Below are positions 172-62,600 of a stretch of 64,000 bases of DNA, one piece after another. Position 1 is the stretch's first letter. The number at the start of each line of letters is the position of its first letter. The translations under genes were made by a program, and so were the position numbers. Source of the stretch: Artocarpus heterophyllus (taxonomy: Eukaryota; Streptophyta; Magnoliopsida; Rosales; Moraceae); the NCBI GenBank assembly GCA_025403435.1, contig CM046347.1, forward strand, positions 21,082,028 through 21,146,027, read 5' to 3'. The notes beneath the pieces were generated by a model that worked only from the letters and a program-made list of their open reading frames with translations, did no database searches and was not told where the DNA came from.

Positions 172-253
172 ATCGGCCTGCCGACCATTCAGAATCGGCC
201 TGCCGATTTTGCTGAGTTCGGCCTGCCGAACTATAAGTTCGGCTTGCCGATTT
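172..253. repeat. Cluster of four TCGGC-CT-GCCGA palindromic motifs
   Basis: Four copies of a 12-base near-palindrome (TCGGC, 2-base spacer, GCCGA; one copy has TT as spacer) lie within about 80 bases. They sit directly upstream of a TATA box and of the ORF at 537. The same motif fills the 3' LTR of the element at 2496-2836. Confidence 0.85.
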
Positions 254-259
254 GTCGGG

Positions 260-268
260 GTATATAAA
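260..268 (+). promoter_or_regulatory. TATA box of the transposon ORF
   Basis: GTATATAAA is followed by about 270 bases of CT-rich leader and then the ATG at 537. The palindrome cluster lies just upstream, so the ORF probably has its own promoter. Confidence 0.5.
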
Positions 269-536
269 CCCCGAACTTGAGCATGCCCTCATTCATCTTC
301 ATTTTCTTGCTTTCCTCGGCCGCCTCTTTCCAATCTCAAGTGCGAAAATCATCACCCACTCCACCGTTCATCGATTTTCTTGCATTTTTCATCAATTTTG
401 TGGACTTTCATCGTTCTCCCTCATTTTTTTCTTGAATTTCCCGTGTGTTCTTACACTTTTCTTTCAAGATTCTCCACTTTCCCTCAAAACCCGTTGTTCC
501 CTGCTTGTATTTGAGCTCTACCTCCGGCATTTCCAA

Positions 537-1619
537 ATGGCTTCAGGTTCTCGTCCTTTCAAGCGCACCAAATCTGTCGCTCACAAGGAAACCCACAAAG
601 AGGTAACCTTAGCGGAATTTTCAAACGAAAATTATGTTAAATTTTTCTCCTCTAGGAAAATTATTGATGGCAAGTATGTTTGTTTTGAGGATTTTGCTAG
701 CTTTGGTATAGAACCTTTGTTAGATAGACTAGGATGGAAGAACATTATGCTTTTGAAGGAAAATATATATCCTAGGCTTGTTAAAGGGTTTTATGCCAAT
801 CTTAGAGCATCATATGATCCCCTTGAAATTGAGGTGACTTTGAAACAGAGACACATAGAGTTGAACCCAACTGTAATAGGGGAAATCCTTGATATGCCAC
901 TAGAAGGTGTAGATATTTATGGAGTCAAGACTTGGATATTTGATAAAGAACCTATGGCTAAGGTTATTTTCGAAAATGATGATGGTAGCCTACCTAGGAA
1001 AATCAATGCAGCATCTTTACCTCCTAGGAGTCGAATTCTTCATAGGCTTATTACTACCAACATCTTACCTAGAGCTGGCCATAAGGACGAAGTCCAATTT
1101 ATTGACCTCCACCTTATTTATTGTATTCTTAGTGGTACCAAAATAAATTTACCCCTCTTGTTGGTGCGACGGATGATTGATGTCGCTGAAGGAAAGAAAA
1201 GTGCCGGACTGCCATATGGAATGCTTCTTTCTAAAATTTTTTATTCATTTAATGTCCAAACTGCTGATGAGAAGGACGTGGCTCTGTATAAACCCCATAA
1301 TGCTTTTGGTGTCCTAACCATTTGCAAAATGGGATTTGAGGAAGTTCACGGGCAATGGATGCCAGCTGGTGGGCGAGCCGTTCCTCCAGGTGCTCAAGTA
1401 GAAGAAGAAGAAGAGATAGCCAACATTGAAGCTCAAGGTGGCCAAGATGACGACGAAGAGCCTATCACTCTTCAAAGGCTTTACTCGCATCAACAGCTCC
1501 TTTTTGAGCAGCAGCAAAAGATGGGGGCCGACATTGCAAATCTGCAAGCCGGTCAACAAGAGATTCTCAATCTTCTTCGTCAAATGCACTTTGGTGGAGG
1601 ATCATCAAGCCAACCATAA
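537..1619 (+). CDS. Retrotransposon 3' ORF, 'putative plant transposon protein' domain
   Basis: This is an intact intronless ORF of 360 codons. An in-frame upstream ATG at 252 exists, but the TATA box and pyrimidine-rich leader favour the ATG at 537 (MASGSRPFKRTK). The N-terminus is basic and nuclear-signal-like. The middle, roughly residues 45-270, resembles the 'putative plant transposon protein' family often found in plant repeats: it has a YPRLVKGFYANL-like stretch, then PPRSRILHRLITTNILPR, then the conserved block around IDLHLIYCILSG. An acidic stretch (EEEEE, then DDDEE) follows, then a Gln-rich, probably coiled-coil tail ending GGGSSSQP. The molecular function is unknown. Its place between the polymerase genes and the 3' LTR matches the extra ORF of Sireviruses. 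It is intact although the surroundings are decayed, so the insertion may be fairly recent. Confidence 0.7.
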   Translation: MASGSRPFKRTKSVAHKETHKEVTLAEFSNENYVKFFSSRKIIDGKYVCFEDFASFGIEPLLDRLGWKNIMLLKENIYPRLVKGFYANLRASYDPLEIEVTLKQRHIELNPTVIGEILDMPLEGVDIYGVKTWIFDKEPMAKVIFENDDGSLPRKINAASLPPRSRILHRLITTNILPRAGHKDEVQFIDLHLIYCILSGTKINLPLLLVRRMIDVAEGKKSAGLPYGMLLSKIFYSFNVQTADEKDVALYKPHNAFGVLTICKMGFEEVHGQWMPAGGRAVPPGAQVEEEEEIANIEAQGGQDDDEEPITLQRLYSHQQLLFEQQQKMGADIANLQAGQQEILNLLRQMHFGGGSSSQP

Positions 1620-37030: not shown

Positions 37031-38282
37031 AGCCCAAAAATTTTTAATGTAATTTAGTGTTTATTTATTTTTAATAATTTTATTTAGAATTTTATTTTAT
37101 TTTATTTTATTTTGTAAATTAGTTATGAATAATTTATTTTTAATTTTAATTTGTTATGGTATTTCTTAAATTAAATAATAATAATAAAATTAATTGTTAA
37201 ACGAAAGTCTAGAGAGTGTAAAAATTTTATTTTTCCCGACACTCAAACCTTCGACCTTAGGGAGATATAGAGTGTGTTTTACCAATGTGTTTGAGGCTAT
37301 CTTTTGTCATTTTTTTTTTTTTTACATATATTACATTTAAACTATTCGGATGGATTCAAATTAGGCCAAAAGTGAATATAGGCCACCATTTTGGGCCTAA
37401 ACTAAACTTGGGCCAAGATCGACATTGGACTTCTTTTCCTGTCTAAATGCAAAATTTGCTCATGATTTCGAAAGCTCATCAAGCCTAAAAAATAGTTGGG
37501 CCCATTCCATGTCAAACAGACTTAGCCCACTTAAACTTTTGAGCCCAAACCAATTTGAGAGCCAACACAAATCTTGTACGGCTAGCCAAATTAACCCAAT
37601 CCCCATGACACCAGTTCAAAATTCAAGTTTGGGGGTATGGCTCAACATGTATCCAGTTCAATCAAATTTGTAAATAAAAATATTTTTAATTTTATTTTAT
37701 TTTCATATTTATTTTAATTCAAAATAAAAATGGGCTAAATTTGAATTTGGGCTTCCATTTTGGGTCTAAGCCTAGGCCCAATCAAGTCCGGTCCAAAAAA
37801 AATAAAAAATAAAGGAGCCTCAACACATGTCCTTCATATGTGTCCTGCACAGTTGCCAATCTATGTCTATAGATCCCATTAGTATACGTCGAGAATTAGT
37901 TCTTCAGATCCAATCTCTCTCTAAACTTCTCCTACTCTTTCTAGAAATCTAAAATCCTCTCCCTTATCTCCAGAATTCTCACTTTCTCTCTCATGTTCTT
38001 TCTCAATTTTTTAGGATTTTTTTCTAGATCCCTCATAGATTCATCTTAATTCCCACCCAAAATCCTCTATCCATCTTCAGAACCTAGTAATCCACCTTTA
38101 GATTTCCCACCTTCTTCTTTTTTTGTTTGTTTCTATTCTTTGTTTCTTTTTGTTCTTCTTTCTTTCTTTCCCCATTTTTCTTTTTCCATGCATCTAAAAT
38201 ACCACCATTTGAAAAAAAAAAAAAAAAAAAACTTCCCATTTATTTCTCAAAAGACTCTTAGAAAAAATACAAGTCTAGGGTA
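37031..38282. other. Non-coding 3' region of element A
   Basis: AT-rich DNA is followed by a stretch repeating GGGCC(T/C)AA-like words (37370-37800) and a TC-rich leader-like segment (37905-38200). The TC-rich segment is followed by the decayed NABP-like gene, so it may be that gene's old promoter and leader. Confidence 0.4.
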
Positions 38283-38713
38283 ACCAAACTTTAGGTTCTC
38301 ATGCGATTTAGCATTCCTAATGATGTCAGGATACTAGTCGAGAGTAAAATGTGTCCGAGTGACTTTGAGCACCTTCTATAAATGGGTAAGAGTCATAGTG
38401 CTATGAGAAAAAGAGCTCTTTCCATTGAATCGAGATGCAACAAGTGTGCTCGATAGACCTATGAAGATGAGTGTCCCCCTCCTAGATTTGTGTCAACCAA
38501 CATAGAGGACAAGATCCACTTCTACAAGGAAGGACTTTCAAAAAAAAAAATGTGGATGACCTCGAAGCTTCCCTAAAAAACCATCCTAGTGTATATGTCC
38601 ATGTTGCAATTGTTAAAATGTGGCCCAAATTCCATGCAAAGAGACAATGCCTTGGGAATCTAGCAAATAAAGACCTTGTTTGCTAGTTTATAAGAAAACT
38701 TGATAGGAAGTAA
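38283..38713 (+). pseudogene. Decayed NABP-like gene in element A
   Basis: In broken frames this matches the intact protein at 47394-46873 from the N-terminal MRFSIPNDVRIL block, through SAMRKRALS, CNKC and TNIEDKIHFYKEGLSKK, to the C-terminal VC.FIRKLD. In-frame stops, a shift near the A-run at 38539 and the loss of parts of the Cys array make it inactive. The N-terminal 30 codons are missing or unrecognisable. It is followed 870 bases later, on the same strand, by a LOG-like pseudogene, the same order as in element D. Homology is seen directly; the virus-like origin is inferred. Confidence 0.8.
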
Positions 38714-39587
38714 ATCCTCGATCCATAGATGTCAGTAACAATAGTTGCAATTTTTTTTTATTTTTGATGTGATTGTTTTTAATTAAAAAGAAAAACATTG
38801 AAAATTTACTCAAGAATTGATTCGGGGTTTTGAATGAAAATATCATCAAAATGGCTCCTTTATAGAGATTCTTTATAAATACATTTTGATGAACATAAGC
38901 TTTCAAATGCAGATATGTTCATTCTTGAATAAATTTTCAGCACAAAAAAAATGTTTTTTTTAGATTATTATAGTAGCTATTAAATATCTGTTTTTGTTTT
39001 TGTTTTATTATTTAAAAAATATTTTCTGGTCAAATGTGTCACGTGTTTGTCCTGTAGGTAGTTTGAAAATTTTCAAATCTTGTCTGATTTTTTTAGATTT
39101 GTGTTATGTTTTTCTAAAGGTCTGTAGAGTATACAAGCAGTCTTTTGTCTTTTGTAGGTTTTTCTAGATTTGGTTTATTTTATCAAAAAGTCTATAGCGT
39201 AGTTTGTTAGTTTTTGTCTTTTTGTTCTTAATTTGTCAAAAGTTGTAGAGTTATGGTTTCATTTTTCAAAAATCTGATTGCGTGTCTACTTTTAAAAATT
39301 TGCTCAGATCTTATCCGACTTTGTCTAATCTATCCATATCTAATCTTCTAACTTTGTATCTATACAATATCTTATCTTCTTTTGTTTTTTTTACTTGTAT
39401 ATATTTTGTTTAAATTTTTAGATAACCTACAATCACCTACCCTGCCATAACTTCTTGGTCATTGTGCATGTTCATCTTCCTTAAGATCTCATTCAAGACT
39501 TAGAGTTCATAGAGCAGATAGAATAAAAACCCAAAACCAAAAAAATCAAATAGTTAAAAAAAGAGTCAACCAGTCATAGTACTAATT

Positions 39588-40170
39588 ATGTCTTCCTCTT
39601 ATTCATTTAGGAGAATCAAAATTGTCTATGCCTTTTGTGGTTACAATTCTGGTAAAGATAGACTATACTTAGAAATCATAGAAAACTTAGGAAAAGTGTT
39701 AGCATGTACAAAGATGAACCTAGTGTTTGGAGGAGGTAGCTTAGGGTTAATGGGTAGAGTAGCTATAGCAGCTTAATCTGGTAGTGTACAAGTCCTAGGG
39801 ATTATCCCTAATGTTCTAGCTGAGGGAAATTATTGTGGAAAGACCATAGGTGAAGAAAAAAGAGTTACACGCATCTGTAAGCATATAAAAGCCGCGGTAA
39901 CTATAGTTGATGCATTCATAGCTCTTCCTAGTATTATAGGCACCTTTGAGGCAATGTTTATAGTTGCTAGTAGAAACTTGTTGAGACTTCATTTCAAACC
40001 TTTAGAACTTTTAAACGTTAACAGTTATTTCTGACAGTTTCTTAAAAATTTTTAGATTACACTATTGATTAAAACTTCATTGTACAATATAGAAGATAGA
40101 TCTTTCTCATCGCTCCAATTGCTAAGGAATTATTGGACAAGACACATATTGTTCTCCTAGAGTCCAATAC
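39588..40170 (+). pseudogene. Decayed LOG-like phosphoribohydrolase gene in element A
   Basis: An open N-terminal part (62 codons) has the LOG start IKIVYAFCGYNSGKD and the canonical nucleotide-binding run FGGGSLGLMG. A stop follows, then the matching frame continues through VQVLGIIPNVLAEGNYCGKT, VDAFIALPS..GTFE (worn PGGxGTxxE motif), PLELLNVN, and a stop-rich tail to about 40170. It is intronless, unlike host LOG genes. It keeps GLMG after GGGS, which the intact copy at 46269-45580 has lost, so neither copy is simply derived from the other. Confidence 0.85.
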
Positions 40171-40179
40171 TGTAACTTC

Positions 40180-40690
40180 GAGGTAAGACTAGGACAAAAG
40201 TGCTGGAAAACAAATACATAGTGGATTTTAAAAAGTTTTTAATCAAAATATTTTTCCAAATAACAAGTTAAATATGCTATGTATATAAATTAGTAAAAGA
40301 TATTTCGTACCTCTTCAGTAAACTAGGAAATTGTAAGAACTTTAACTAGAGAAATCTACTAGAAGAGCCTCGATCAACTAGTCTTCCTTGCTATTCTCTT
40401 TCCATAATCAGAATACGGGTGGTCGCAAGTCGTTCAGTTTTTCCTTAGGTGACCTCTCCTTTCAACCATAAGAGAAAACTAAGAGCTAAAGTTCAAGATA
40501 TTGAACACTGGCCCTATGGGAGTTTTAAAGTTTCTTTCTCTAGGATACTCTCTCTTAATTTTTCAAGTGACCTCAGAAACAAAAAAAAAAATAATTCCCT
40601 TTATATAATGGTTGGATTGGGGCTAGTTCTTATTAAATTTGACCTCAAAATTCGAATTAGACTTAAAATCCATGCTGAAAACACATGAAA
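40180..40690 (-). repeat. Copia LTR end fragment
   Basis: It matches 14330-14800 (shared blocks near GATATGCTA..TACATAAATTA, CTAGAAGAGC, CTTTCCAACCA-like and CTCTTAATTTTTCAAG-like words). It lies directly after the LOG pseudogene inside element A. Confidence 0.6.
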
Positions 40691-41502: not shown

Positions 41503-42640
41503 TGATAGCACACAATAATGCATGTTTTATATGTAACAACCTGTCTTTTGGGCTTTCACTTAACTTTCTTAAACGTTATTATCTTAACATAATTCTTGCT
41601 TACTACTAAGATTTTAATTACATACTTTAACATACACTACAAACTATTGCAGTTGCAACGCAAATTGAAATATAAGTATAAAACTTGATATCTTATAAAA
41701 TACTTTATGTATAAACATTTACTCTTTAAAAACTCTTTAAAACATATTTCCACAATATTTCATAAAATATTTCTTTTAAAATGTTTTTTTCATAAAACAT
41801 TTCTTATAAAACATTTCCTAAGATATTGACTTTCTTAAAACTTTTAAAACACTATTTTAAATAGTGGAAAATTTTTTCTTTAAGTAGTGGAAACAAACTA
41901 TAGTGGCATCCATACCTAAACATCGCATTTATCTCTCCGCAACACCGAGCTCTTTAACCAGTCATACTGGTATTCTATAGAACCATTTACAGCATAAAAG
42001 AACTTGTAATGAGTTTATGCTTAGTAAGTTCAAACACAACCTCACAAAATATTAAAAATATTCATCATAAAATATTGCCTTTAAACTTTTCTTATAAAAC
42101 TTTCTTCGTTAAACATTTCTTGCAAACAGTTTTCATAAATTGTTTTGATAAACATTTCTCATAAACATTTCTTAAAGTGTCTTTCATAAACATCTCTCAC
42201 TAACATATCTAAAAAGGAATACAAGCAAGGTCATTATGCATTATTCCATTTATGCTTAGTTATGAACATTCAATAATGAACTTCTTATTATCATTCATAA
42301 CTTACTTAAACTTCTTGTCATCGTTATTATCTTACTTGAACATATGAGCTTAAGTGTTCATGCGAACATTATCAATTATAAAATTATGACTTTAATTCAA
42401 TATAATGCTTTCCTTGTAGAAGATTTAGGACCATCGAGCAACGAGGTCATAACTTTAGTATAACTTGTATACTTTCCATCCAGGAGGCTGGCACATCATT
42501 GATTTACTTTCTTGTGAACTTTAGTGAGCATATACAATGCTAAAAATACACTATGCTATAACTTAGCATTGAAACCTTAAACATAGCAAATGCGATACAT
42601 TGCAAATTATAACTTGAACATTTCAAAAATTGTGCATAAT

Positions 42641-44619
42641 TGTAACGCCCCTATATGGGGGTTAACAGTTTTTAATGAGATAAAATAAAAATAAATAATA
42701 AAAGTAAAACCTTAAAGATTAAAATTTGCCCGGGACTTAAATGAAAACTCTCAACTCAAAAATAAAAATATAAACGACAAATAAACCACAGTTTTAATGT
42801 AGCACCTTAAATTTAATAATATAAACTGTTGTCATCATCATTTTAACCCTCAACACATTGTAATACAGTCACAGAAAGTAACAATTGATGCTTACATTAT
42901 CATGAAGAACATTCTCAACAATTGAAGCAGTCCCAATGTAATATAGCTACATCACTTCCTCAACTATATTTCTCGTAGCCACCTCACACTTAGTGAGTCC
43001 TGAAAAGATAAAAATATAAGGGTATGAGCAACACTATGCTCAGTAGAGAAAGCCATTACTCACCTTTAGGTTTTTATCATTACCACATTAAAACCTGCAT
43101 GGTTAATAAGTTACATCATATTCCAGATTATGAGGTTTATTATGATCACATCTTATGGATACCGTAGTTAATCATTACCAAGTGTCATAATTACACATTT
43201 ATACAAATATTACCAATCATCATTGTTCCTAGGTATCCATGTTAAATTGAGTATCACTCAACTCATCGAAACCCAAATGGGCGCATTTGATCACCCTATA
43301 AACATTCCAAGGGTGTTCCGATGAGGGGACATCAAGCCCCGAGTCCTCACCAAATCGATTCCTGTACAGTGTGTTCTGGGACTTTCAACCCAAGGAAGCG
43401 TCATCGCCTTCCCCCTATTTTACCTTTTAGGGTATTCATGCCCAAGGACGTAACCGTCGCCCTCTTCATGTCTCACAATTTCTCTATATTGAATCATTAT
43501 TAATAGAGTTAGTTTTCCTAACCATGCTTCTCAATTTATAACATGTGTCAATTCATTATGTTCCTCGCCGTACAATACAAGACGAGTCCATGTCATAGTT
43601 TCATATGTGATAATCATATAATATCAGTTCAACATAGATATATATATATATATTGCGGCAAAACAATCAATTTTAATTCTATAAAAACCTCACAAAAGAT
43701 GAGTAATAGAATCCCTACCTTTTAAGCTTATCAACAGTCTCTTAATCCTGGAATCAATTAACGTTAGCTCCATACTCCCTTGATCCTAAGGCGTGCATAA
43801 GGACAATTAAAACTAAAGCACAACATACAACTACATTCATAAAATTTATTTTAATTTAATCTTAGAATTTCAAGAAATAACCACTGCCCATAGAGGTATT
43901 ACAAAGTTTAACAATATAAATTTTCTGTCTAGGGCATATACACTTAGACTTCATACATATGCTCCAAAATAGCAACAAACATATACTTAGGTTTAAGAAC
44001 GTAAATTTGAATAATCCTTTAGTATAAAAGAAAATTTATAAATGAAAGACTAAATTTGTTCATAAGATTCTAACCTCGGATTATGGTTAGTTGGAAGCTT
44101 GAAATGGCTTCAAAACAGGTTCCTTTACTTCGGTATGACTGAAATTCTTGCTCAAATGGAGGTGATGGTGGCTGATTTTTATGGCTGCCTTGAAGAAGTT
44201 CTCTAAGTATTTTGCTTCAGCAAAGAAATGAGAAGAAGAGTGTGGGAACCGTGGAAGAGAAAGGAAGAAAAGATGAAGTCTTTGAAGAGAAGTGATGGAA
44301 ACAATTATAGAGGAGACATGTTGAAGCATGTCACGGAGGAAATAAAGAAAATGAGGGTCAAGAGTAGTTGGAAAAGATATCCTTATGTCTCATCTAAAGA
44401 CTTTAACACACATAATGCCAATATGACATTTTTGAGATTTATTAGAAGTTCTAAGGCTTTTTAGTAATCATACTAAATAAATATAGGAGAATTTTAGAAA
44501 ACTTAAAAATAGATAAAAATAAATATTATAAAATAAATTTAAATGAAGCAATTTTTTTTTATACATTAAAAATTAATTTAATTACCTCAATACCCGTTAG
44601 GAGAATAACGGGTGTCACA
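42641..44619 (-). repeat. 3' LTR of element D (1979 bp)
   Basis: On the minus strand it starts TGTGACACCCGTTATTCTCC and ends GGGGCGTTACA. A short terminal hairpin (CCCGTTA / TAACGGG) lies at its start. It differs from the 5' LTR by seven transitions. The small ORFs inside it also occur in the other LTR and are probably chance. Confidence 0.95.
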
Positions 44620-44635
44620 GCTCTACCCCCCTTAA
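44620..44635 (-). other. Polypurine tract of element D
   Basis: The minus strand reads TTAAGGGGGGTAGAGC directly before the 3' LTR start TGTGACACC, the expected primer for plus-strand synthesis. Confidence 0.85.
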
Positions 44636-45579
44636 AGAATTTCGTCCTCGAAATTTCAATTCTAGCAATACTAGTAAAAATTTTGATTCCATTATGATTC
44701 CAATTCCGAGTCTAAACCGTTAATGTTGTTTGTCCTCCAAATTTAAGTCATCGTATTTCCACTTATTTACTTGCATAATAAATCTTACTCTAATTTCTAA
44801 ATCCCTCAATGAGAGTATTTCTGACAAGTTTCAACTTGTAACACCGTATAATAGTCTAAGAATCTGATCAGGCATACATATTTACCATACCATGATTCCA
44901 GTCCTTCATTGTCCATGGACTGTGATTTACAATCACATTTAAGGAGATTGCCAGAGAAATTTTATATACTTCATCTTTAGGTTCCTTTTCCTTTTTGAGT
45001 AAGGAAAAGTCAAATATATTTGATTTCATACCTCAACTAATAAACTAAAACATAATCATAAAACATATATCACAAACACTTATATTCAAAACCATACATT
45101 AAACTTATTCATAGAGATATTAAACGGAATCTCAGAGTTGCAAACATACCCGGCATATTTTTCATTAAACAGCTATCCTCATGACACAAACATTCAATCC
45201 AAATAATATACTCATATTTCATATGGAATATCCCCATAACTGACTCTGGTACTTCCACATAATATTAACAGAATATTACACATTACAAACATAATACGGA
45301 TACGTTTCGAGAGTACAAGGCACTCCGTATACCAGCTATCCATATCATGCATGCTTAGAGGATACAAAAACATCGATAAACAAAAGATCGGACCTTAAGA
45401 AGAATGCGTTTCGAGAGCATCAAGTACTCCGTATCCAGCCATCCCGGCATTAGGCTCAATGAATCTAAAAGATTTAACAACGACGTACCACAAAAAACAC
45501 AGAATACAAGGCAAACGGTTATTCGTAACACACGAAATACGGACACACATGCCTACATGCCAAAGATAAAACAAAAAGA

Positions 45580-46269
45580 TTACAGATGGAGATTCAAATC
45601 AATTGGCCGCTCCCGGCTTTCCCTTTCCCATTCAAGCTTGGATGTTGCAGTGTCGGATTCTGGATGTATGATTTGCATTTTATCTATCAATTCCTCAGCT
45701 GTTGAAGCAGTAAAAAAGATTTGTCTCTCCGATTCTGTAGTGATGTTTTCTTCCACAGCGTAATCTAGAAATTTCAAAAGACCGTCATAAAAACCCTTTA
45801 CGTTCAGCAGACCCAAAGGTTTGGAATAAAAGCCCAACAATTGCCCACAAGCAACTATAAATATTTCCTCAAGAGTACCTAGACCACCAGGTAATGCTAT
45901 AAAAGCATCAGAATTATAGATTATGTCTTTAAAATTTTTAGGGATACTCCTGACTCCTTCTCCCTTACCTATGGCTTCCTTACAAAGGTTTCCTTCAACT
46001 GGAATATGAGGCCAAATTTTTACATCAGTAACGTCGCTAGACCTAGCTGCTAGTGCCATATTTACCATCATTTTTATACTACCACCCCCATATATTATGT
46101 TAATCTTTTTGCGTGCTAGGACTTGCCCTAAGTGATTTGCAGCTTCTAAATAAGCTTTATCTTTTCCAAAGCTGGAACCACAAAAGACACAGACATTCTT
46201 TATTTTCTTCGTGGACTGGGAGGTAGACATATTTGGTTTATAGAAGTGGTTGCTTAATGTCTGCTCCAC
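45580..46269 (-). CDS. LOG-like cytokinin riboside 5'-monophosphate phosphoribohydrolase in element D
   Basis: This is an intact intronless ORF of 229 aa. LOG enzymes release active cytokinin base from its nucleotide in the cytosol. Visible landmarks are VCVFCGSSFGKDKAY (residues 26-40), YGGGS (60-64), SDAFIALPGGLGTLEE with the family motif PGGxGTxxE at 127-135, and KPLGLLNVKGFYDGLLKFLD (150-169). Length fits the family (about 210-230 aa). Two deviations matter. The Arg-Lys of the usual MHERKAEM segment aligns with Asn112-Phe113, and GLMG after GGGS is KMMV. So catalysis may be lost or changed. Host LOG genes have several introns, so the intronless form suggests capture as mRNA. It lies 603 bases after the NABP-like ORF, in the element's sense orientation. 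Confidence 0.85.
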   Translation of the reverse strand: MEQTLSNHFYKPNMSTSQSTKKIKNVCVFCGSSFGKDKAYLEAANHLGQVLARKKINIIYGGGSIKMMVNMALAARSSDVTDVKIWPHIPVEGNLCKEAIGKGEGVRSIPKNFKDIIYNSDAFIALPGGLGTLEEIFIVACGQLLGFYSKPLGLLNVKGFYDGLLKFLDYAVEENITTESERQIFFTASTAEELIDKMQIIHPESDTATSKLEWERESRERPIDLNLHL

Positions 46270-46872
46270 TTAGACTTCGGGTTCTACATGAGATTTTAAA
46301 GATGAGAAATATACAAAAAGGGCTAAAGAGATAGACGAGTAGGTAATGAAAAGGTAATCCAAAGATTTAAACAAAATCTTGTGCGGATAAGAAAGTAAGA
46401 TAAGGTGATTAATAGTTTACAGAAAATCTGATTCACTTTTTGAAAAAGATTAGACTCTAATTGTATAACTTTTGACAATTGAGAACAATTCGACAAAAGA
46501 CCCTCATGACACAACTGTAGACTTTTTGACAAATATACACCAAGTCTAGAAATTTAATATAAACGACAAATACTGTAGAACTTTTGAAATTTGAGACACA
46601 ATCTTGAAATATCTGGATAAGCTTTTCAAAATTCAAACATATTACTGTATCGTATGTGACGTGTCTGATAAGATAATATATTTTATTATATATATATTTA
46701 AGAAAATCATAAATTAAATAAGATATTAACACTTACTGTATCAATCTAATAATCACAATTATTTCAAACACAAAAGCAAATATTCTGAGTAAAAGAAAAA
46801 CACAAACTGTTGAACATCAGCTAAAACTGCTTCAAATAAGTAAAGACTAAATAACCTTTATAGAGCGATGAC
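46270..46872 (-). other. Spacer between the two cargo ORFs of element D
   Basis: This is an AT-rich, non-coding 603-bp spacer. The decayed cassette in element A has a comparable spacer (about 870 bp). It may hold a promoter for the LOG ORF, but I see no convincing TATA context. Confidence 0.4.
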
Positions 46873-47394
46873 TTATTCCCCATCCAGTTTTCTTATGGCT
46901 TGACAAACAGGATCTAGAAATACCATATTCCTGAGGCGTTGTCTTTCTGTATAAAATTTAGGCCAGAGTTTAAAAATAGCTCCTTGAACATATCCACTAG
47001 GGTGACCGTGGAGAGGAGGATGGATGCTATCCAAGTTCTCCTTTGAAAGTCCATCCCTACAAAACCTTATTTTATCCTCTCTATTCGTAGACATATAACC
47101 AGGTGAAGTACATTTACCGTTACAATTTTGTCTTCCACATTTGTTACAAGTGACCATGATGGCACGAGCTCTTCTTTTCATTGCACTACGACTGGTACCC
47201 GTTCCTGGTAAACCGACATCTTGACTAAAGTCACTCGGACGGATTTTCCCCTCTATCAACATTCTCACATCACAAGGGATACCAAAACGCATAAGAATCC
47301 ACAACCGAGTAATTCTAGCCTTGTATTTCTTTCTGAGAATCTTTTGGGAGAGTGATGGGAAATACTTTCTCATGTGTTGGTACTTTGGGTCCAT
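46873..47394 (-). CDS. NABP-like basic Cys-rich protein in element D
   Basis: This is an intact ORF of 173 aa. The N-terminal third is basic (KKYKARITR) and followed by a hydrophobic LWILMRFGIPCDVRMLIEGK segment. The core has the arginine-rich KRRARA (73-78) then C83-x2-C86-x4-C91-x3-C95, followed by NREDKIRFCRDGL (104-115). This order, basic patch, compact Cys cluster, then an 'I/L-RF-x-x-x-G' block, resembles the nucleic-acid-binding/silencing-suppressor proteins of carla- and vitiviruses (Viral_NABP family). The C-terminal extension of about 55 residues ending VCQAIRKLDGE is unlike what I know of that family, but it is conserved in the pseudogene at 38283-38713. Role in the element unknown; nucleic-acid binding is likely. 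Virus origin is an inference. Confidence 0.65.
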   Translation of the reverse strand: MDPKYQHMRKYFPSLSQKILRKKYKARITRLWILMRFGIPCDVRMLIEGKIRPSDFSQDVGLPGTGTSRSAMKRRARAIMVTCNKCGRQNCNGKCTSPGYMSTNREDKIRFCRDGLSKENLDSIHPPLHGHPSGYVQGAIFKLWPKFYTERQRLRNMVFLDPVCQAIRKLDGE

Positions 47395-48864
47395 GATGAG
47401 ATGAAAGAAGAGTAAATAGAAAGGAAAAATTAAGATAGTAAATTGCAGAATCCTAGAATTCCTTCTTCTTTTTGAGGAAAAGAAGAATTTTTAATGAAAA
47501 AGAAGAGGATTTGCGATTTAGAGAGAAAATAACAAATTAAGAGAGAAAAAGTGAACTCGGAGAAATAAGCTCTTATGCACAGTAAACGTATATGTAAACA
47601 ATGATTAAACCACTGTATATGACACGTATAGAGACCACGTGGGAGAGACAGTGTGCATCAAACTGATTTAAGATTTGAACTAGGCCCAAATGTTCTTAGT
47701 TGAAAATGGTCAGGTTGTTTCGGGCCTTAACACATTTAGAACAAGTTAAATAACAAACATAAAATTGAAAACCAATTCGTATGAATCTTAAACCCAATTC
47801 AAAGCCCACTATAGATAAAGTTAATTATGAACAACAAATCTAATTTAACGACAACAAGGATCTTCCTGAATGATATTTAAAATCATTTCATAACAACACA
47901 ATCTTCCAGCAACTCAAATGATTTTGTTTTAATCAAAACCTTATTGAACAATGCATACACCCATATGTTATTCATAATACTTAACATCTATCAATGGATT
48001 CATCATCATTACTACCAAGGGTTTAGAATGTGACTAACCTTGAAATCAATACGATTTACGTCTTTCAACGTAGACCATATCAACGAACAAAGACACTAGA
48101 TGTTACTACTTAGGAACATCTACAATCTCCACAATTCTACTTATACAATATATAATTTCCTCATATAACAAAACCTTAGGTAACCAAAAGATTCACTGAT
48201 ACACTTAAATACAATGTACGTAACGAAATATTCCAATTTTGAGATTCATGCATTCTAGACTTTACACAGTCTCAACAGACCAAAAGTCTAACATTTATCT
48301 CTCTCAAGATTCAATACCATGATTCCCAACTTATATCATATTCCTCAAATATATAGAACTTTTAAGAAAAGATATTGACACTTATGTGCTCCATCGAATC
48401 CACACATAATCATTACTTAGGTTTGAATCAATTACGAAAAATTTGGCATATCTATGTCAAACTTTAAAATCAATAAATCAAGCCTTATATTTCTTATTGT
48501 TTTTCACGAGACAAAAGGCTCTTAAATCCTCGTATCTATACGAATTTCTCATCGTTTATACGAATTAGATATGCTTATAGATCCAAATATTATACGAATC
48601 TCTCATAAGCAATCTACTTATAAACTCATTCCATATAATTATCATTCCCTCATAACTATTAATACTTTCCTTCTATATAATTATTGTACTCATATAACTA
48701 TTAATATTTTCATTCTATGGCATTTCCATGTTACATCCTTCTAGACTGTATAAATCAATGTGAAGGTTCATTTTGATGATGACAATGAAAATTCAGCTTC
48801 AAAACCATCTCAAAAATATTTTTTTTTAAAGTGGTGCTACACTCCCTAGGTTAACCGAACCTAG
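47395..48864 (-). other. Element D leader, 1.47 kb, non-coding
   Basis: It lies between primer site and first ORF where gag would start. No gag-like frame or stop-riddled gag remnant is visible. This is the likely RNA packaging region. Confidence 0.5.
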
Positions 48865-48876
48865 GCTCTGATACCA
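48865..48876 (-). other. Primer-binding site of element D (initiator-Met tRNA type)
   Basis: The minus strand reads TGGTATCAGAGC, complementary to the 3' end of plant initiator tRNA-Met, seven bases after the 5' LTR. Confidence 0.9.
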
Positions 48877-48883
48877 AAAATTC

Positions 48884-50862
48884 TGTAACGCCCCTATATG
48901 GGGGTTAACAGTTTTTAATGAGATAAAATAAAAATAAATAATAAAAGTAAAACCTTAAAGATTAAAATTTGCCCGGGACTTAAATGAAAACTCTCAACTC
49001 AAAAATAAAAATATAAACGACAAATAAACCACAGTTTTAATGTAGCACCTTAAATTTAATAATATAAACTGTTGTCATCATCATTTTAACCCTCAACACA
49101 TTGTAATACAGTCACAGAAAGTAACAATTGATGCTTACATTATCATGAAGAACATTCTCAACAATTGAAGCAGTCCCAATGTAATATAGCTACATCACTT
49201 CCTCAACTATATTTCTCGTAGCCACCTCACACTTAGTGAGTCCTGAAAAGATAAAAATATAAGGGTATGAGCAACACTATGCTCAGTAGAGAAAGCCATT
49301 ACTCACCTTTAGGTTTTTATCATTACCACATTAAAACCTGCATGGTTAATAAGTTACATCATATTCCAGATTATGAGGTTTATTATGATCACATCTTATG
49401 GATACCGTAGTTAATCATTACCAAGTGTCATAATTACACATTTATACAAATATTACCAATCATCATTGTTCCTAGGTATCCATGTTAAATTGAGTATCAC
49501 TCAACTCATCGAAACCCAAATGGGCGCACTTGATCACCCTATAAACATTCCAAGGGTGTTCCGGTGAGGGGACATCAAGCCCCGAGTTCTCACCAAATCG
49601 ATTCCTGTACAGTGTGTTCTGGGACTTTCAACCCAAGGAAGCGTCATCGCCTTCCCCCTATTTTACCTTTTAGGGTATTCATGCCCAAGGACGTAACCGT
49701 CGCCCTCTTCATGTCTCACAATTTCTCTATATTGAATCATTATTAATAGAGTTAGTTTTCCTAACCATGCTTCTCAATTTATAACATGTGTCAATTCATT
49801 ATGTTCCTCGCCGTACAATACAAGACGAGTCCATGTCATAGTTTCATATGTGATAATCATATAATATCAGTTCAACATAGATATATATATATATATTGCG
49901 GCAAAACAATCAATTTTAATTCTATAAAAACCTCACAAAAGATGAGTAATAGAATCCCTACCTTTTAAGCTTATCAACAGTCTCTTAATCCTGGAATCAA
50001 TTAACGTTAGCTCCATACTCCCTTGATCCTAAGGCGTGCATAAGGACAATTAAAACTAAAGCACAACATACAACTACATTCATAAAATTTATTTTAATTT
50101 AATCTTAGAATTTCAAGAAATAACCACTGCCCATAGAGGTATTACAAAGTTTAATAATATAAATTTTCTATCTAGGGCATATACACTTAGACTTCATACA
50201 TATGCTCCAAAATAGCAACAAACATATACTTAGGTTTAAGAACGTAAATTTGAATAATCCTTTAGTATAAAAGAAAATTTATAAATGAAAGACTAAATTT
50301 GTTCATAAGATTCTAACCTCGGATTATGGTTAGTTGGAAGCTTGAAATGGCTTCAAAACAGGTTCCTTTACTTCGGTATGACTGAAATTCTTGCTCAAAT
50401 GGAGGTGATGGTGGCTGATTTTTATGGCTGCCTTGAAGAAGTTCTCTAAGTATTTTGCTTCAGCAAAGAAATGAGAAGAAGAGTGTGGGAACCGTGGAAG
50501 AGAAAGGAAGAAAAGATGAAGTCTTTGAAGAGAAGTGATGGAAACAATTATAGAGGAGACATGTTGAAGCATGTCACGGAGGAAATAAAGAAAATGAGGG
50601 CCAAGAGTAGTTGGAAAAGATATCCTTATGTCTCATCTAAAGACTTTAACACACATAATGCCAATATGACATTTTTGAGATTTATTAGAAGTTCTAAGGC
50701 TTTTTAGTAATCATACTAAATAAATATAGGAGAATTTTAGAAAACTTAAAAATAGATAAAAATAAATATTATAAGATAAATTTAAATGAAGCAATTTTTT
50801 TTTATACATTAAAAATTAATTTAATTACCTCAATACCCGTTAGGAGAATAACGGGTGTCACA
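48884..50862 (-). repeat. 5' LTR of element D (1979 bp)
   Basis: It has the same length and ends as 42641-44619. As the upstream LTR on the minus strand, it must hold the promoter that would drive the NABP-LOG transcript. Confidence 0.95.
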
Positions 50863-52786
50863 ATAATATATGCAAATATCTTCAAACGTATAAAAGCATT
50901 TGAAAAATAAGGCATTTTAAAACATTTTTCTTCATGCTATAGGTGAGGTTTAAACTTACCTAGACTTAGCTCTACCGTTCTCATTTAATTCCTTTTTCCT
51001 TTTATTAGTTGACTTTTATGTCTTATTTCGAATATCACGTGACTATTAGCTAACCTTTTTTATTATCAATCTTTTCGATTGATAATATAACTTAAATATT
51101 AAACGTCCATTCTTTTTTACTTAGCCTCATTCTTATTGGTTTATTTCTTCATTACTTAACTTGAATATTCTCTAGTCAAACTTCTTGTCTTGCTTAACGA
51201 TTTCATTATTTAACGTAATATGGAATATTTTCCATCTAATAGCGTCTTGTTAATTCGAAGTGTTCGGATTTGTTTTAGCAATTTTCTTAAAAATGATGAT
51301 TTTATCCTTAACGGGTTTTTCGCGAGTCACTTAGCTTATTAAACTTTTCATTTTACTTTACCATTCCATCGTTTAAGAGGTACAGAAAAATTCACCTAAT
51401 TCGGTCATTTCAGGTCTATTTTGGTCTTTTTATACAAAATGACCGTTTTGCCCTTGATGTTTTTCTCTTTCTTTCTTAATAAACACTTTAAATTCTTTCA
51501 AACTTGGAATTCGTGGTTACTCATTGCCTATAGTAGTGTAGAAAACTAACATTTCATAGTGAAAATTCTATTTCTCTCGTTTTATGGTTTTGACCTAAAA
51601 TACAAAAATCTTGACATTTTTGCCCTAGGACCAAAAATAATTGTTTTATACTAGAAAGTATAGTTTTTAATAGGAACTAAAACTAATAAAAGCTTCTTGT
51701 TTAATTCAAATAATTCTAAAAAGTTTTCCTTATTTCAAAATTATGTGATTAAAATCTCATAAAATTCATATCTTAAAATTGGTATAGAATTTTCGTGAGC
51801 CGTCAGCATTTCCTAACCATTTCGATATGATCTACAACTTTCATGTTTTAACTTTTCTCAAAATTGTTCATCTTCATATACTTTTCGGATGGGTAGTACC
51901 AAAATCCTTATATTATAGCTTGATCCGTTTGGAATTCAAGCAGAATTTCTTCACAAAAGTTGTCTGACTCAATGTTTCCAATAAATTTTATGTTGAACTC
52001 AGAAAATAATTCAACTTCTAAGGGCCTCAAGCATTTGATTCTTTCAAAAATACCTTAAACATACTTTTTTGTATCTTAACTTATCTCAACTTGATTTCTA
52101 AGGTTTAATCTCATTTAAACCTTTCTAATCATTTAATCAAGAACTTATTACATAATAAAACATACCATAACATTTTCGTTTCATGCCATGACTCAAAATC
52201 ATTTTGTCAAACACTTAGTTTGCTTAAACTTAGTGTTTATGACAAAGTTTGTAACACTTTGTCTTTTAAACCTTAAACTATAGTTTTATATCTTTTTATC
52301 ATCATTATCATCCTCTTAACGTAGCATTTAATCATAACACAAAGTCCCATATATATGCCATAATCTAAAAAGATTACAAACCATAATCTTAATTCATGAA
52401 AACAAAATATTTTTCAAGACTAGGGTTTAAGAATTTCCCAAAGATTTCTTCAAGCTGTTGATCCTCCTTTGAATGCTTAAACCTTGATATTTCTTCTTGA
52501 TATAAATCATAGCAAAGCCTCTATCAAAACCTATCCATAAACTCAAAACCACTAAAACCCATAGGAAAAAGTTAGGATTTTAACCTTCAAGAGTGACCAT
52601 TCTTGAACTAGAGCACTTGAACTTGATTTTAAACTTGATTAGAGGTTGAATTTTTTGAAAAATACAGAGGGGACATAGGGGCTTATGGCCAGTTTCTTGG
52701 GAGTTAAATGGGTGTGTTTTTTCATGTTGTGTATGAAAATGATGGCGACAATTTTTTGATCTTGTCACTTAAACTAATCACACACC

Positions 52787-58814: not shown

Positions 58815-59600
58815 ATGCTAAATGGGACTAACTTCAAGGACTGGAAAGAGAATGTGTTAATCGTTCACGATTGCCTTGATCTGGACTTAGCCATAAGGGT
58901 TGAAAGCCCCACTATTACAGATTCTAGTTCCGCTGAGGATAAAAAGGAACTTGAAAGATGGGATCGTTCTAACAGAATGAGTCTGATGATCATTAAGAGA
59001 GGCATTCCAGAAGTCTTCAGGGGCACTGTAATTGATGAGGTCACTACTGCCAAGGGTTTCCTTGAGGCCATAGAAAAATGCTTTGCAAAGAATGATAAGG
59101 CTGAAACAAGCACGCTTTTGGCGAGCCTGATTTTAATGAGGTACAAAGCTAAGGGAAACACAAGGGAGTACATTATGTAAATGTCTCATCTGGCTTCAAG
59201 ATTAAAGACACTAGATCTGGAAATTTCTGAGGATCTTCTAATGCATCTTGTCTTGATTTCTCTTCCTACACAATTCAGCCAATTCAAGATCAGTTAAAAC
59301 TGCCAGAAAGAGAAATGGACTCGTAACGAGTTAATTTCTTATTGTGTGCAAGAGGAAGAAAGACTGAAGCAAGAGAAGACTGAAATGCTCACTTGGCTAG
59401 CACCTCTAAGGACAAAAAGAAGAAAAGAAAGAAAAGCAATGAAGCTGCTAAAGGTCCAGCACAAAAGAAACAAGATAAGGATAAAAATGATGGAAATGTT
59501 GCTTGTTTCTTTTGTGGTAAACCTGGACACATGAAGAAGGTCTGCACCAAGTATCATGCTTGGCGTGCAAAGAAAGATATGCTTATCAATTTGGTTTGTT
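58815..59600 (+). pseudogene. Copia gag, broken
   Basis: The frame starts with the Copia gag signature (MLNGTNFKDWKENV), and the coding context extends upstream to about 58760. It runs to a TAA at 59178, resumes in frame, meets a second TAA near 59295, and shifts frame near 59390. It then shows a Lys-rich linker and the zinc knuckle CFFCGKPGHMKKVC (C-x2-C-x4-H-x4-C). With two stops and a shift, no full capsid protein can be made. Confidence 0.9.
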
Positions 59601-62600
59601 CTGAGATTAATTTAACTTTAGTGCCAAGACACACTTGGTGGATTGATTCAGGTGCCACTACTCATATAAGTGTGTCTATGCAAGGGTGCCTGAGCTACCG
59701 AAAGCCAATTGATGCTGAAAGATTCATCTATGTGGGAGATGGCAAATCGGCAGAAGTTGAAGCAATAGGGCATTTTAGGTTATTGTTAAGTTCTGGTTAT
59801 TATTTGGATTTAAAAGACACTTTTGTTGTACCGTTGTTTGGCGAAATTTAATTTCTATTTCTGCTTTGGACAAATCTGGATACTGTTGTTCATTTAGAAA
59901 TAGTCATTTAGTCTTTCTTTAAATTCAAATGTTGTTGGTACCGGTTCTTTATCATTTCAAGATAACCTATATTTGCTTGATACAGTTGCTTCTTATAATG
60001 AAACCTTGCATGTTAGTTCTCGTGGCATAAAATGTAAATTAACCAATGAGAATTCCGCTGTATTATGGCATAAGCGATTAGGACATATTTCAAGAAAAAG
60101 AATGGAAAGACTTGTGTCAGATGGAATTCTTACTTCCCTTGATTTTACAAATTTTGAAACCTGTGTTAATTGTATTAAAATGAAACAGACAAACAAAAGG
60201 GGATTGGGTGCCAATAGAGCTATGGATGTCTTAGAATTGATACATACGAATATTTGTGGACCATTTCCTGTGGCTTCATGGAATGATCAACAATATTTTG
60301 TATCGTTCATAGATGATTACTCCTGGTATGGCTACCTATATCTCATACATGAGAAGTCACAAATTTTGGACGTGTTCAAGTCATATAAGGCTGAAGTTGA
60401 GCTTCAACTCAGTAAAAGAATTAAGGGCGTCAGATCTGACTGTGGTGGTGAATACTATGGCAGATATGACGGATCAGGTGAACAACGTCTAGGACCTTTT
60501 GCTAAATTCCTAGAGGAATGCGGGATAGTCCCTCAATATACCATGCTAGGTTCACCTAGCATGAATGGTGTAGCTGAGAGATAAAACCGGACACTTAAGG
60601 ACATGGTGAGGAGTATGATTTGTCATTCCACCTTACCTGAATCCCTCTGGGGTGTAGCACTCAAGACTGCAGCTTACATTCTTAACAGAGTACCAACAAA
60701 AGCAGCAGCTAAAACACCTTATGAGCTTTGGACTAGCTAAAGGCCTAGTCCAAAGCATTTACATACTTGGGGTTGTCCAGCAGAAGCAAGGCCTTATAGG
60801 CCCAATGAAAAGAAATTGGACTCCAAGATAGTGAGCTGCTATTTCATTGGATACTCTGAACGGTCAAGAGGTTACAAATTTTATGATCCCACTACTAAGG
60901 CTATTTTTGAGACGGGAATTGCAACATTCTTTGAGGATGTTGAGTTTGGGGGGAGAAATAAGGTTAGAGACTTTATCTTTGAGGATGAATTTGATCTTGT
61001 TCCTTTTGTACAAGAGGGATTGGTTCCTATTCCTACAATTGCTTTTGATAATGTTCAGGCTTCTATTCTTGACGTTGATCAAATTGCATATCAAGAACAA
61101 CCAGACATAGTCATTCAACCCCTTCAGGTACAAACTCAACAACCTCAAGAACCAGAACCTAAGAACTTATGCCATTAAGGAGATCCATTAGAGATAAGAG
61201 AAGTGCTATTTCGGATAATTACATAGTATTTCTCCAAGAACATGAGGAAAGTGTTGGATTGATGGATGATGATCCGATCAATGTCCGTCAAGCCATGCAT
61301 AGTTTAAACTCTCAAAAGTGGATGGATGCCATGAAGGATGAGATAAAGTCTATGAAGGACAATGACGTTTGGGATCTCGTTCCATTGCCTGAAGGTGCGA
61401 AGCCCATTGGTTGTAAATGGATATTTAAAACCAAGAGGGATTCGAAGGGTGATGTAGAGCGATATAAGGCTCGTCTTGTTGCTAAGGGCTTTACTCAAAA
61501 GGAAGGCATTGATTATAAAGAGACTTTCTCTCCGGTTTCATTGAAAGACTCTTTTAGGACAATTATGGCACTTGTAGCGCATTTTGATCTTGAGCTACAT
61601 CAGATGGATGTTAAGACGACGTTTCTAAATGGTGACATTGATGAAATGATCTATATGGTGTAGCCAGAAAACTTTGAGTCGGGAGACCCAAAGAAGATGG
61701 TTTGTAAATTAAAGAAATCCATCTATGGGCTTAAGCAAGCTTCTCGTCAATGGTATTACAAATTTCATCAAGTGATAGTCTCATTCGGTTTCGAGATGAA
61801 CACTGTAGATGACTGTATATACCATAAGTTTAGTGGGAGTAAGTGTATTCACCTGGTATTGTATGTTGACGATATACTGCTTGCCACCAATGATATAGGC
61901 TTATTGCACGAAACCAAGAGATTTCTATCAAAAAATTTTGAAATGAAAGATCTTGGTGACGCCTCTTTTGTGTTAGGAATTAAAATACATCGAGATCGTT
62001 CTCGGGGTATACTTGGGTTATCACAAAAGAGCTATATCGAAAAGGTGCTTAAAAGATTTGGCATGCAGGATTGTAAACCAGGAGATACCCCTGTGGCTAA
62101 AGGAGATAAATTCAGTTTAAGTCAGTGTCCTAAGAACGACCTTGAGGTTAAGGAAATGGAAAAGATCTCATATGCATCAGCTGTTGGGAGTCTAATGTAC
62201 GCTCAAGTTTGTACTCGTCCAGATATAGCATACATTGTTGGATTATTGGGCAGATATTTGAGTAACTCTGGAATGGATCATTGGAAAGCAGCCAAACGGG
62301 TTATGCGATATTTACAAAGAACAAAAGATCACATGCTTACATATAGAAGGTTAGACCAACTCGAGATCATTGGTTATTCGGATTCAGATTTTGCTGGATG
62401 TCAAGATAGTCGTCGATCCACTTCGGGCTATATTTTTTTTTGCTTGCTGGAGGAGCTATTTCTTGGAGGAGTGCTAAGTAGTCACTCATAGCTTCTTCCA
62501 CTATTGAGGCAGAATTTATAGCATGTTATGAGGCATCCAATCATGGAATATGGCTGCGAAACTTTGTCACTGGGCTGCGGATTGTGAAAAGTATAGAAAG

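Follow-up and report, generated by a model that had tools for sequence, protein, structure and literature searches.

A high-copy LTR retrotransposon without gag-pol carries NABP-like and LOG-derived genes in Artocarpus heterophyllus

How a long terminal repeat (LTR) retrotransposon without gag and pol comes to carry two other, intact genes, and whether these genes serve its spread, is the question raised by an 8.2-kb element at positions 42641-50862 of a stretch of Artocarpus heterophyllus DNA (contig CM046347.1; 64,000 nucleotides, referred to in its whole length as the window). One gene encodes a protein that resembles the nucleic acid-binding proteins (NABP) of plant RNA viruses, the other a homologue of the cytokinin enzyme LOG. 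An initial annotation had suggested that a recently moved retroelement picked up a silencing-defence protein and a growth-hormone enzyme. With moderate confidence, we favor the view that this is a high-copy non-autonomous LTR element, likely copied in trans, and that NABP and LOG are an accessory cassette of long standing among plant LTR elements.

Structure and copy number of the element

The sense strand of the element is the minus strand of the window; hence, its 5' LTR lies at 48884-50862. LTR alignment and coordinates confirmed the anatomy first described, with near-identical 1979-bp LTRs, the target-site duplication ATAAT, a primer-binding site, a polypurine tract, and minus-strand sense (Table 1). 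All of the features by which an LTR retrotransposon is recognized are therefore present. The two LTRs are identical at 1972 of 1979 positions (99.65%), and the seven differences are all transitions, which supports the proposed recent insertion of a non-autonomous element. From its motif, we take the primer site TGGTATCAGAGC to be of the tRNA-Met type. An open reading frame (ORF) survey of the 4264-nt interior detected no gag or pol ORF and, as annotated, two intact long sense ORFs of 173 and 216 codons, with no other long ORF in sense; the element thus has no gag-pol of its own and does not qualify as autonomous. Non-autonomous elements of the LARD and TR-GAG types likewise have LTRs, a primer site, and a polypurine tract but no complete gag-pol; the element described here differs from these in its two conserved non-gag ORFs. 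No match to Rfam was obtained in 42000-51500.

Table 1. Features of the element and of the older relic in the window
Feature	Position	Strand	Remarks
Decayed copy of older family with both genes	38233..40201	+	NABP remnant 38277-38704, LOG remnant 39588-40183
Target-site duplication ATAAT, left	42636..42640	.	
3' LTR, 1979 bp	42641..44619	-	99.65% identity to other LTR
Polypurine tract AAGGGGGGTAGAGC	44620..44633	-	In sense, ATTTCGAGGACGAAATT stands just before
LOG-family ORF, 216 residues from ATG at 46230	45580..46230	-	Pfam, PDB 2a33, residue comparison
C-terminal IDLNLHL tail (LxLxL, EAR-type) of LOG ORF	45583..45603	-	Sequence
Non-coding block between both ORFs	46437..46552	-	Cross-family identity
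NABP-family zinc-finger ORF, 173 residues, basic patch then C-X2-C-X4-C-X3-C	46873..47394	-	
Primer-binding site	48865..48876	-	tRNA-Met type, as presumed from motif
5' LTR, 1979 bp	48884..50862	-	
Target-site duplication ATAAT, right	50863..50867	.	

Copies were counted in the window's own genome (985 Mb in 334 contigs) with 36-nt markers, allowing up to three mismatches and using reversed markers as controls. The NABP marker matched 3,082 times and the LOG-tail marker 3,094 times, whereas the reversed controls gave no match. If every copy were full length, the element would account for approximately 25 Mb, or 2.6% of the genome. Protein searches of the genome yielded at least 150 scored copies per protein with 98-100% identity (5,818 and 6,165 candidates at first look). 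On one contig (C1), an exact LOG-tail marker was located 1347-1359 nt downstream and on the same strand for 52 of 57 exact NABP markers, the other five being without one. Six further copies were retrieved: in five, both ORFs lie in an unbroken interior of 4.1-4.3 kb; a gag-pol-bearing relative splits the sixth. Chance ORFs are ruled out by the marker matches set against the empty reversed controls, and an isolated chimera by the copy counts. Nor did the interior prove to contain gag-pol normally, given the five uninterrupted copies and the paired markers on C1. At one locus (L056, C3:8925000-8934900), the element occurs in tandem, as LTR-interior-LTR-interior, and L057 and L058 are similarly arranged.

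A gag-pol-bearing relative

The relative sits nested, in antisense orientation, in the sixth copy (L052/L053, contig C15). Its gag part is open, its pol frame of 1178 codons contains protease, reverse transcriptase, RNase H, and integrase parts, and its two LTRs, each about 1974 bp long, show 99.9% identity. We presume from its motifs that it belongs to the Tekay lineage; no Chromo domain was matched in its integrase by Pfam at 0.001. Element and relative have the TTTCGAGGACGAAATT motif at the polypurine tract in common and are 84% identical over 110 nt of the primer-site region. Their LTRs are 95% identical over nt 778-1599 (822 nt) and 71% over the last 180 nt. With a tRNA-Met-type primer site and LTR and primer-site sequence in common with a gag-pol-bearing Ty3/gypsy element, the element probably groups with chromovirus-type Ty3/gypsy elements. 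According to PMC6317226, priming by tRNA-Met is found in most chromoviruses and also in those Ty1/copia lineages whose tRNA primers are complete; among the Ty3/gypsy lineages surveyed there, no non-chromovirus uses it.

These similarities suggest that gag-pol from related autonomous Ty3/gypsy elements would copy the element in trans, acting on cis signals of the chromovirus type (LTR, tRNA-Met-type primer site, and polypurine tract). One observation weighs against the relative as the actual source: nt 1-777 of the element's LTR are unmatched in the relative's LTR, and because of this the exact helper was not found. The relative is therefore likely the helper type, without being proven as the partner. 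A 36-nt marker from the end of its pol had 787 genome matches (reversed control, 0), a count that more diverged copies would escape. By these marker counts, the gag-pol-less element exceeds the gag-pol-bearing relative by about 4:1.

Older history of the gene pair

In the window itself lies a degenerate member of an older family in which both genes are present (Table 1). A genome search for this family drew 2,325 candidates, of which 40 were scored and gave 65 matches; apart from the query, these are 68-93% identical in DNA. The NABP and LOG genes of the older family stand in the same order as in the element. The non-coding block between the two ORFs is retained at approximately 68-75% identity in the window relic and in five of six older loci tried, and was unmatched in L062 and in L067. 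It is about as conserved between families as both ORFs and may contain a splice site or an internal promoter for LOG. Two relatives of the older family, L060 (C26:10288519) and L061 (C26:7070803), are 99.8% identical over 5.27 kb and probably represent a recent duplication.

A further occurrence of NABP was found on a 3,330-bp contig (L067), in which an open frame of 496 codons with integrase domains (rve, H2C2) is followed by an intact NABP ORF about 200 nt behind it. We take this frame, from its motifs, to be of the Athila type; over 469 columns, it shows 24% identity with the pol of the relative, and in the window's genome it had 19,548 candidates, with 86 matches scored. The contig is plant-like and is filed under a bacterial metagenome-assembled genome (Candidatus Nomurabacteria), probably as contamination. 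Of two pol flanks read in the window's genome, the 3' flank of L069 retains 47 nt of NABP at 87% (E 8e-11), and that of L070, an intact Athila-type family, has non-coding sequence in common with L067.

Because the older family has both genes and an NABP ORF follows an Athila-type integrase in L067, the cassette looks older than the element at 42641-50862. The element may have inherited the cassette or gained it by recombination. The initial annotation is thus right that a retroelement carries both genes, whereas a capture by this element itself is not needed. Movement of the cassette between retroelement lineages would be consistent with these data. Several observations tell against such a history. 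No LOG match was present in L067, so the analysis did not encounter LOG next to a pol of the Athila type; as a protein, the L069 remnant scores modestly (29.6 bits, where the top-scoring of 200 shuffles reached 26.6); the 3' flank of L070 contained no NABP; and at the eight loci read, neither of the two pols tried lay within 1.5 kb of older copies.

Selection on the two genes

Both ORFs could instead be hitchhikers: pieces of genes that were picked up through template switching and are copied along with the element, with no role in its spread. LTR elements are known to capture genes (PMC3726574), and the loss of the catalytic arginine from LOG (see below) also speaks for this explanation. Distinct variants were counted over 42 loci, of which 34 were chosen by NABP similarity and eight by LOG (one being the window's own copy), after L022, L025, and L034 had been dropped. 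For LOG, 40 nonsynonymous and 22 synonymous variants were near the neutral expectation (expected ratio 2.65, p 0.10); selection within the family is therefore weak, which counts against the favored view. NABP showed 38 nonsynonymous and 26 synonymous variants (expected ratio 2.97, p 0.005), a result biased by the choice of loci by NABP.

Other comparisons speak for retention of the genes. The older family has both of them together, with DNA that is about 65-76% identical. NABP of the window gave dN 0.30 and dS 1.43 (dN/dS of about 0.21) against the older copy L062, which is itself decayed, and pN 0.35 and pS 0.76 (saturated) against L067. LOG was open in 30 of 36 copies picked by NABP, with one more partial, and among LOG variants found in at least three copies, six were nonsynonymous and seven synonymous. 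Its pooled pN/pS within the family was 0.36, based on changes that are common to copies and not independent. Finally, the relic L064 keeps the LOG tail as PLNLSLYL. On balance, we consider it unlikely that the two genes are mere passengers.

The 173-residue NABP-like protein

The 173-residue protein belongs to a large family of plant proteins. Its relatives numbered 15 at E<=1 when the single sequence was used and 856 at E<=1 with a profile. Each of the best 120 of these 856 bears a precomputed PF01623 match, and Hibiscus, Xanthoceras, Populus, Acer, Rhamnella, and Orobanche are among the sources named. Pfam was scanned one by one with 126 proteins, namely that of the window and 125 homologues. 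Viral_NABP was matched at E<=0.001 by 97 of 126 (best 1.1e-8) and Carla_C4 likewise by 97 of 126 (best 3.7e-8). Seven of eight family proteins that we selected exceeded the curated cut-off of Viral_NABP, with about 85 residues aligned, including those ahead of the finger. The four cysteines are kept in 115, 123, 124, and 122 of the 126 proteins, and the spacing C-X2-C-X4-C-X3-C in 104. As a genome-wide probe, PF01623 itself marked one place only, being too insensitive for the lineage of this ORF.

An alternative is that the protein is nucleocapsid-like, or a host zinc-finger protein, and resembles NABP by convergence on a basic patch followed by a cysteine cluster. The spacing C-X2-C-X4-C-X3-C is near that of the zinc knuckle. 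Several results lean this way and away from a kinship with viral NABPs. The window copy stays below both Pfam cut-offs (Viral_NABP, E 0.0079 and 16.6 bits with a cut-off of 23; Carla_C4, E 0.091 and 13.2 bits with a cut-off of 20.9). Of three reversed homologues, none matched NABP, and all matched an unrelated cysteine-rich family at 1.9e-4, 2.7e-4, and 1.9e-3, so that the noise floor is not far. The finger also departs in spacing from the C-X2-C-X12-C-X4-C of the carlavirus cysteine-rich proteins (CRPs), in which a basic patch lies just ahead, according to passages of PMC8839810. Against convergence stand the matches to two viral families, with E values down to 1e-8 and a collinear alignment that extends ahead of the finger, the seven proteins above the cut-off, and the lack of any gag family among the Pfam matches, by which a gag origin is rejected as well. 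Convergence thus appears improbable to us, and the likeness to viral NABPs first noted for this ORF is borne out more clearly by the family than by the window copy.

Like the carlavirus and flexivirus proteins (PF05515, PF01623), the family shows a C4 zinc cluster immediately preceded by a basic patch; unlike them, it has the shorter zinc spacing and a conserved C-terminal part of about 75 residues (NREDKI, HPSG, DPVCQ). Passages of PMC8839810 and PMC12172455 report carlavirus CRPs as silencing suppressors and describe a mandarivirus CRP that suppresses silencing by single-stranded, but not double-stranded, GFP RNA. In the favored view, the NABP-like protein would bind nucleic acid and either help the element against host silencing or regulate host genes. 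Solved structures gave no meaningful match (best E 0.029). When contigs were scanned with the NABP alignment, viral contigs gave 54 pattern matches and no relative, and genome contigs 117 pattern matches and one relative, the contig L067. One homologue, P0095 (210 residues), continues into an extension that closes with NLSLSL and so resembles the LOG proteins in having LxLxL at its end.

The LOG-derived protein

The second ORF encodes a LOG homologue, as annotated (Pfam Lysine_decarbox, 2e-21; PDB 2a33, 2.4e-42). In the ORF list it starts from an upstream GTG (45580-46269, 229 residues); homologues begin at the ATG at 46230. A protein search gave 5,640 matches at E<=1e-20 from 8,000 candidates scored, and the best 120 were used; residue counts refer to 117 of these after P0127-P0129, which have internal duplications, had been dropped. 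The window protein belongs to the same sequence family as the LONELY GUY cytokinin riboside phosphoribohydrolases and keeps the PGGxGTxxE motif and both glutamates. The position of CgLOG R99 is taken by Asn112, compared with arginine in 106 of 117 matches, and the equivalents of K100 and W129 are Phe and Gly. This adenine-site lysine is kept in eight of 117 matches and the tryptophan in 111. In addition, GGGSxGLMG reads GGGSIKMMV.

Cytokinin production by the window protein is therefore unlikely, because the catalytic arginine is replaced by asparagine and other active-site residues are changed. That LOG still releases active cytokinin, promotes division, and so favors transposition in dividing tissue, close to what had first been supposed, is highly improbable; the retained motif and glutamates, the arginine of most other matches, and a carlavirus CRP reported to upregulate a cell-proliferation-linked factor (in passages of PMC8839810) are outweighed by these substitutions, since passages of PMC4979012 propose Arg99 and Glu122 of CgLOG as catalytic and describe active-site alanine substitutions, S19A excepted, as nearly abolishing activity.

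At its C terminus, the window protein ends in LNLHL, which fits the EAR consensus LxLxL (PMC6283911, PMC9956375). Such a motif lies within 30 residues of the C terminus, mostly at the very end, in 93 of the best 120 matches, compared with 6.4% of shuffled tails; because the matches are related, the 93 do not count as separate instances, and among the remaining 27 some seem truncated. A 46-row tree, built from the window protein and 45 that we chose from the best 120, places the window protein on a long branch among 39 rows, 36 of them with the tail, apart from seven canonical LOGs with a support of 100. The element's protein thus differs from LONELY GUY enzymes in its separate clade and EAR-type tail and, for the window copy, in a degenerate active site. 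Pathogen effectors that bind TOPLESS are described in the literature. In the favored view, the LOG-derived protein would use its tail to act on corepressors of the TOPLESS type and would not serve as a cytokinin producer. PADLOC gave no match for two LOG proteins.

Relation to known elements

Steinbauerova in 2011 reportedly described LOGL4 in two Athila-like elements. A LOG/YgdH domain is listed for LTR consensus elements of two Citrus species and Populus trichocarpa (PMC9289625, citing Steinbauerova 2011), which are similar to the present element in having additional ORFs, one of them LOG-related. The latter differs in its lack of gag-pol, its roughly 3,000 copies, and its NABP-type partner; the passages on the Citrus and Populus elements name neither NABP nor the pair. 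A term search of PMC7264820, a review of additional ORFs, did not retrieve LOG, YgdH, or cytokinin. Among the matches listed in open-licence literature, with most subscription papers outside its scope, there was no NABP gene in LTR elements, no NABP-LOG pair, and no EAR tail on such LOGs. The remark that no LTR element with this pair had been described accordingly holds for the pair within this scope, but not for LOG, whose presence in LTR elements was known before.

AlkB domains occur in flexiviruses too. Ty3/gypsy elements of orchids that encode an AlkB RNA demethylase (PMC9289625) likewise combine this type of element with an accessory RNA-related gene; they differ in being 25 kb long and in having AlkB instead of NABP.

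A more far-reaching proposal, which we put forward tentatively, is that the two-gene cassette moves between Athila-type and chromovirus-type lineages, with NABP acting against silencing and LOG as a pseudoenzyme that recruits TOPLESS via its EAR tail, and that flexiviruses and retrotransposons have exchanged NABP.

Other features of the window

At 252-1619 (+), the window contains an ORF of 455 codons with a Transposase_32 match (putative plant transposon protein, 2.4e-25). A run of ORFs at 58815-62491 (+) is gag-pol-like and broken into pieces; we assume it to be Ty1/copia.

Implications

If a trans-copied element with an old NABP-LOG cassette is the correct explanation, plant retrotransposons would share a type of counter-defence protein with plant RNA viruses, and an NABP-type gene together with a relative of a hormone enzyme would constitute a mobile cassette that passes between retroelement lineages. 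An element that has this cassette and no gag-pol could then outnumber its gag-pol-bearing relative several-fold, and silencing suppression by transposons with virus-type proteins would become testable.

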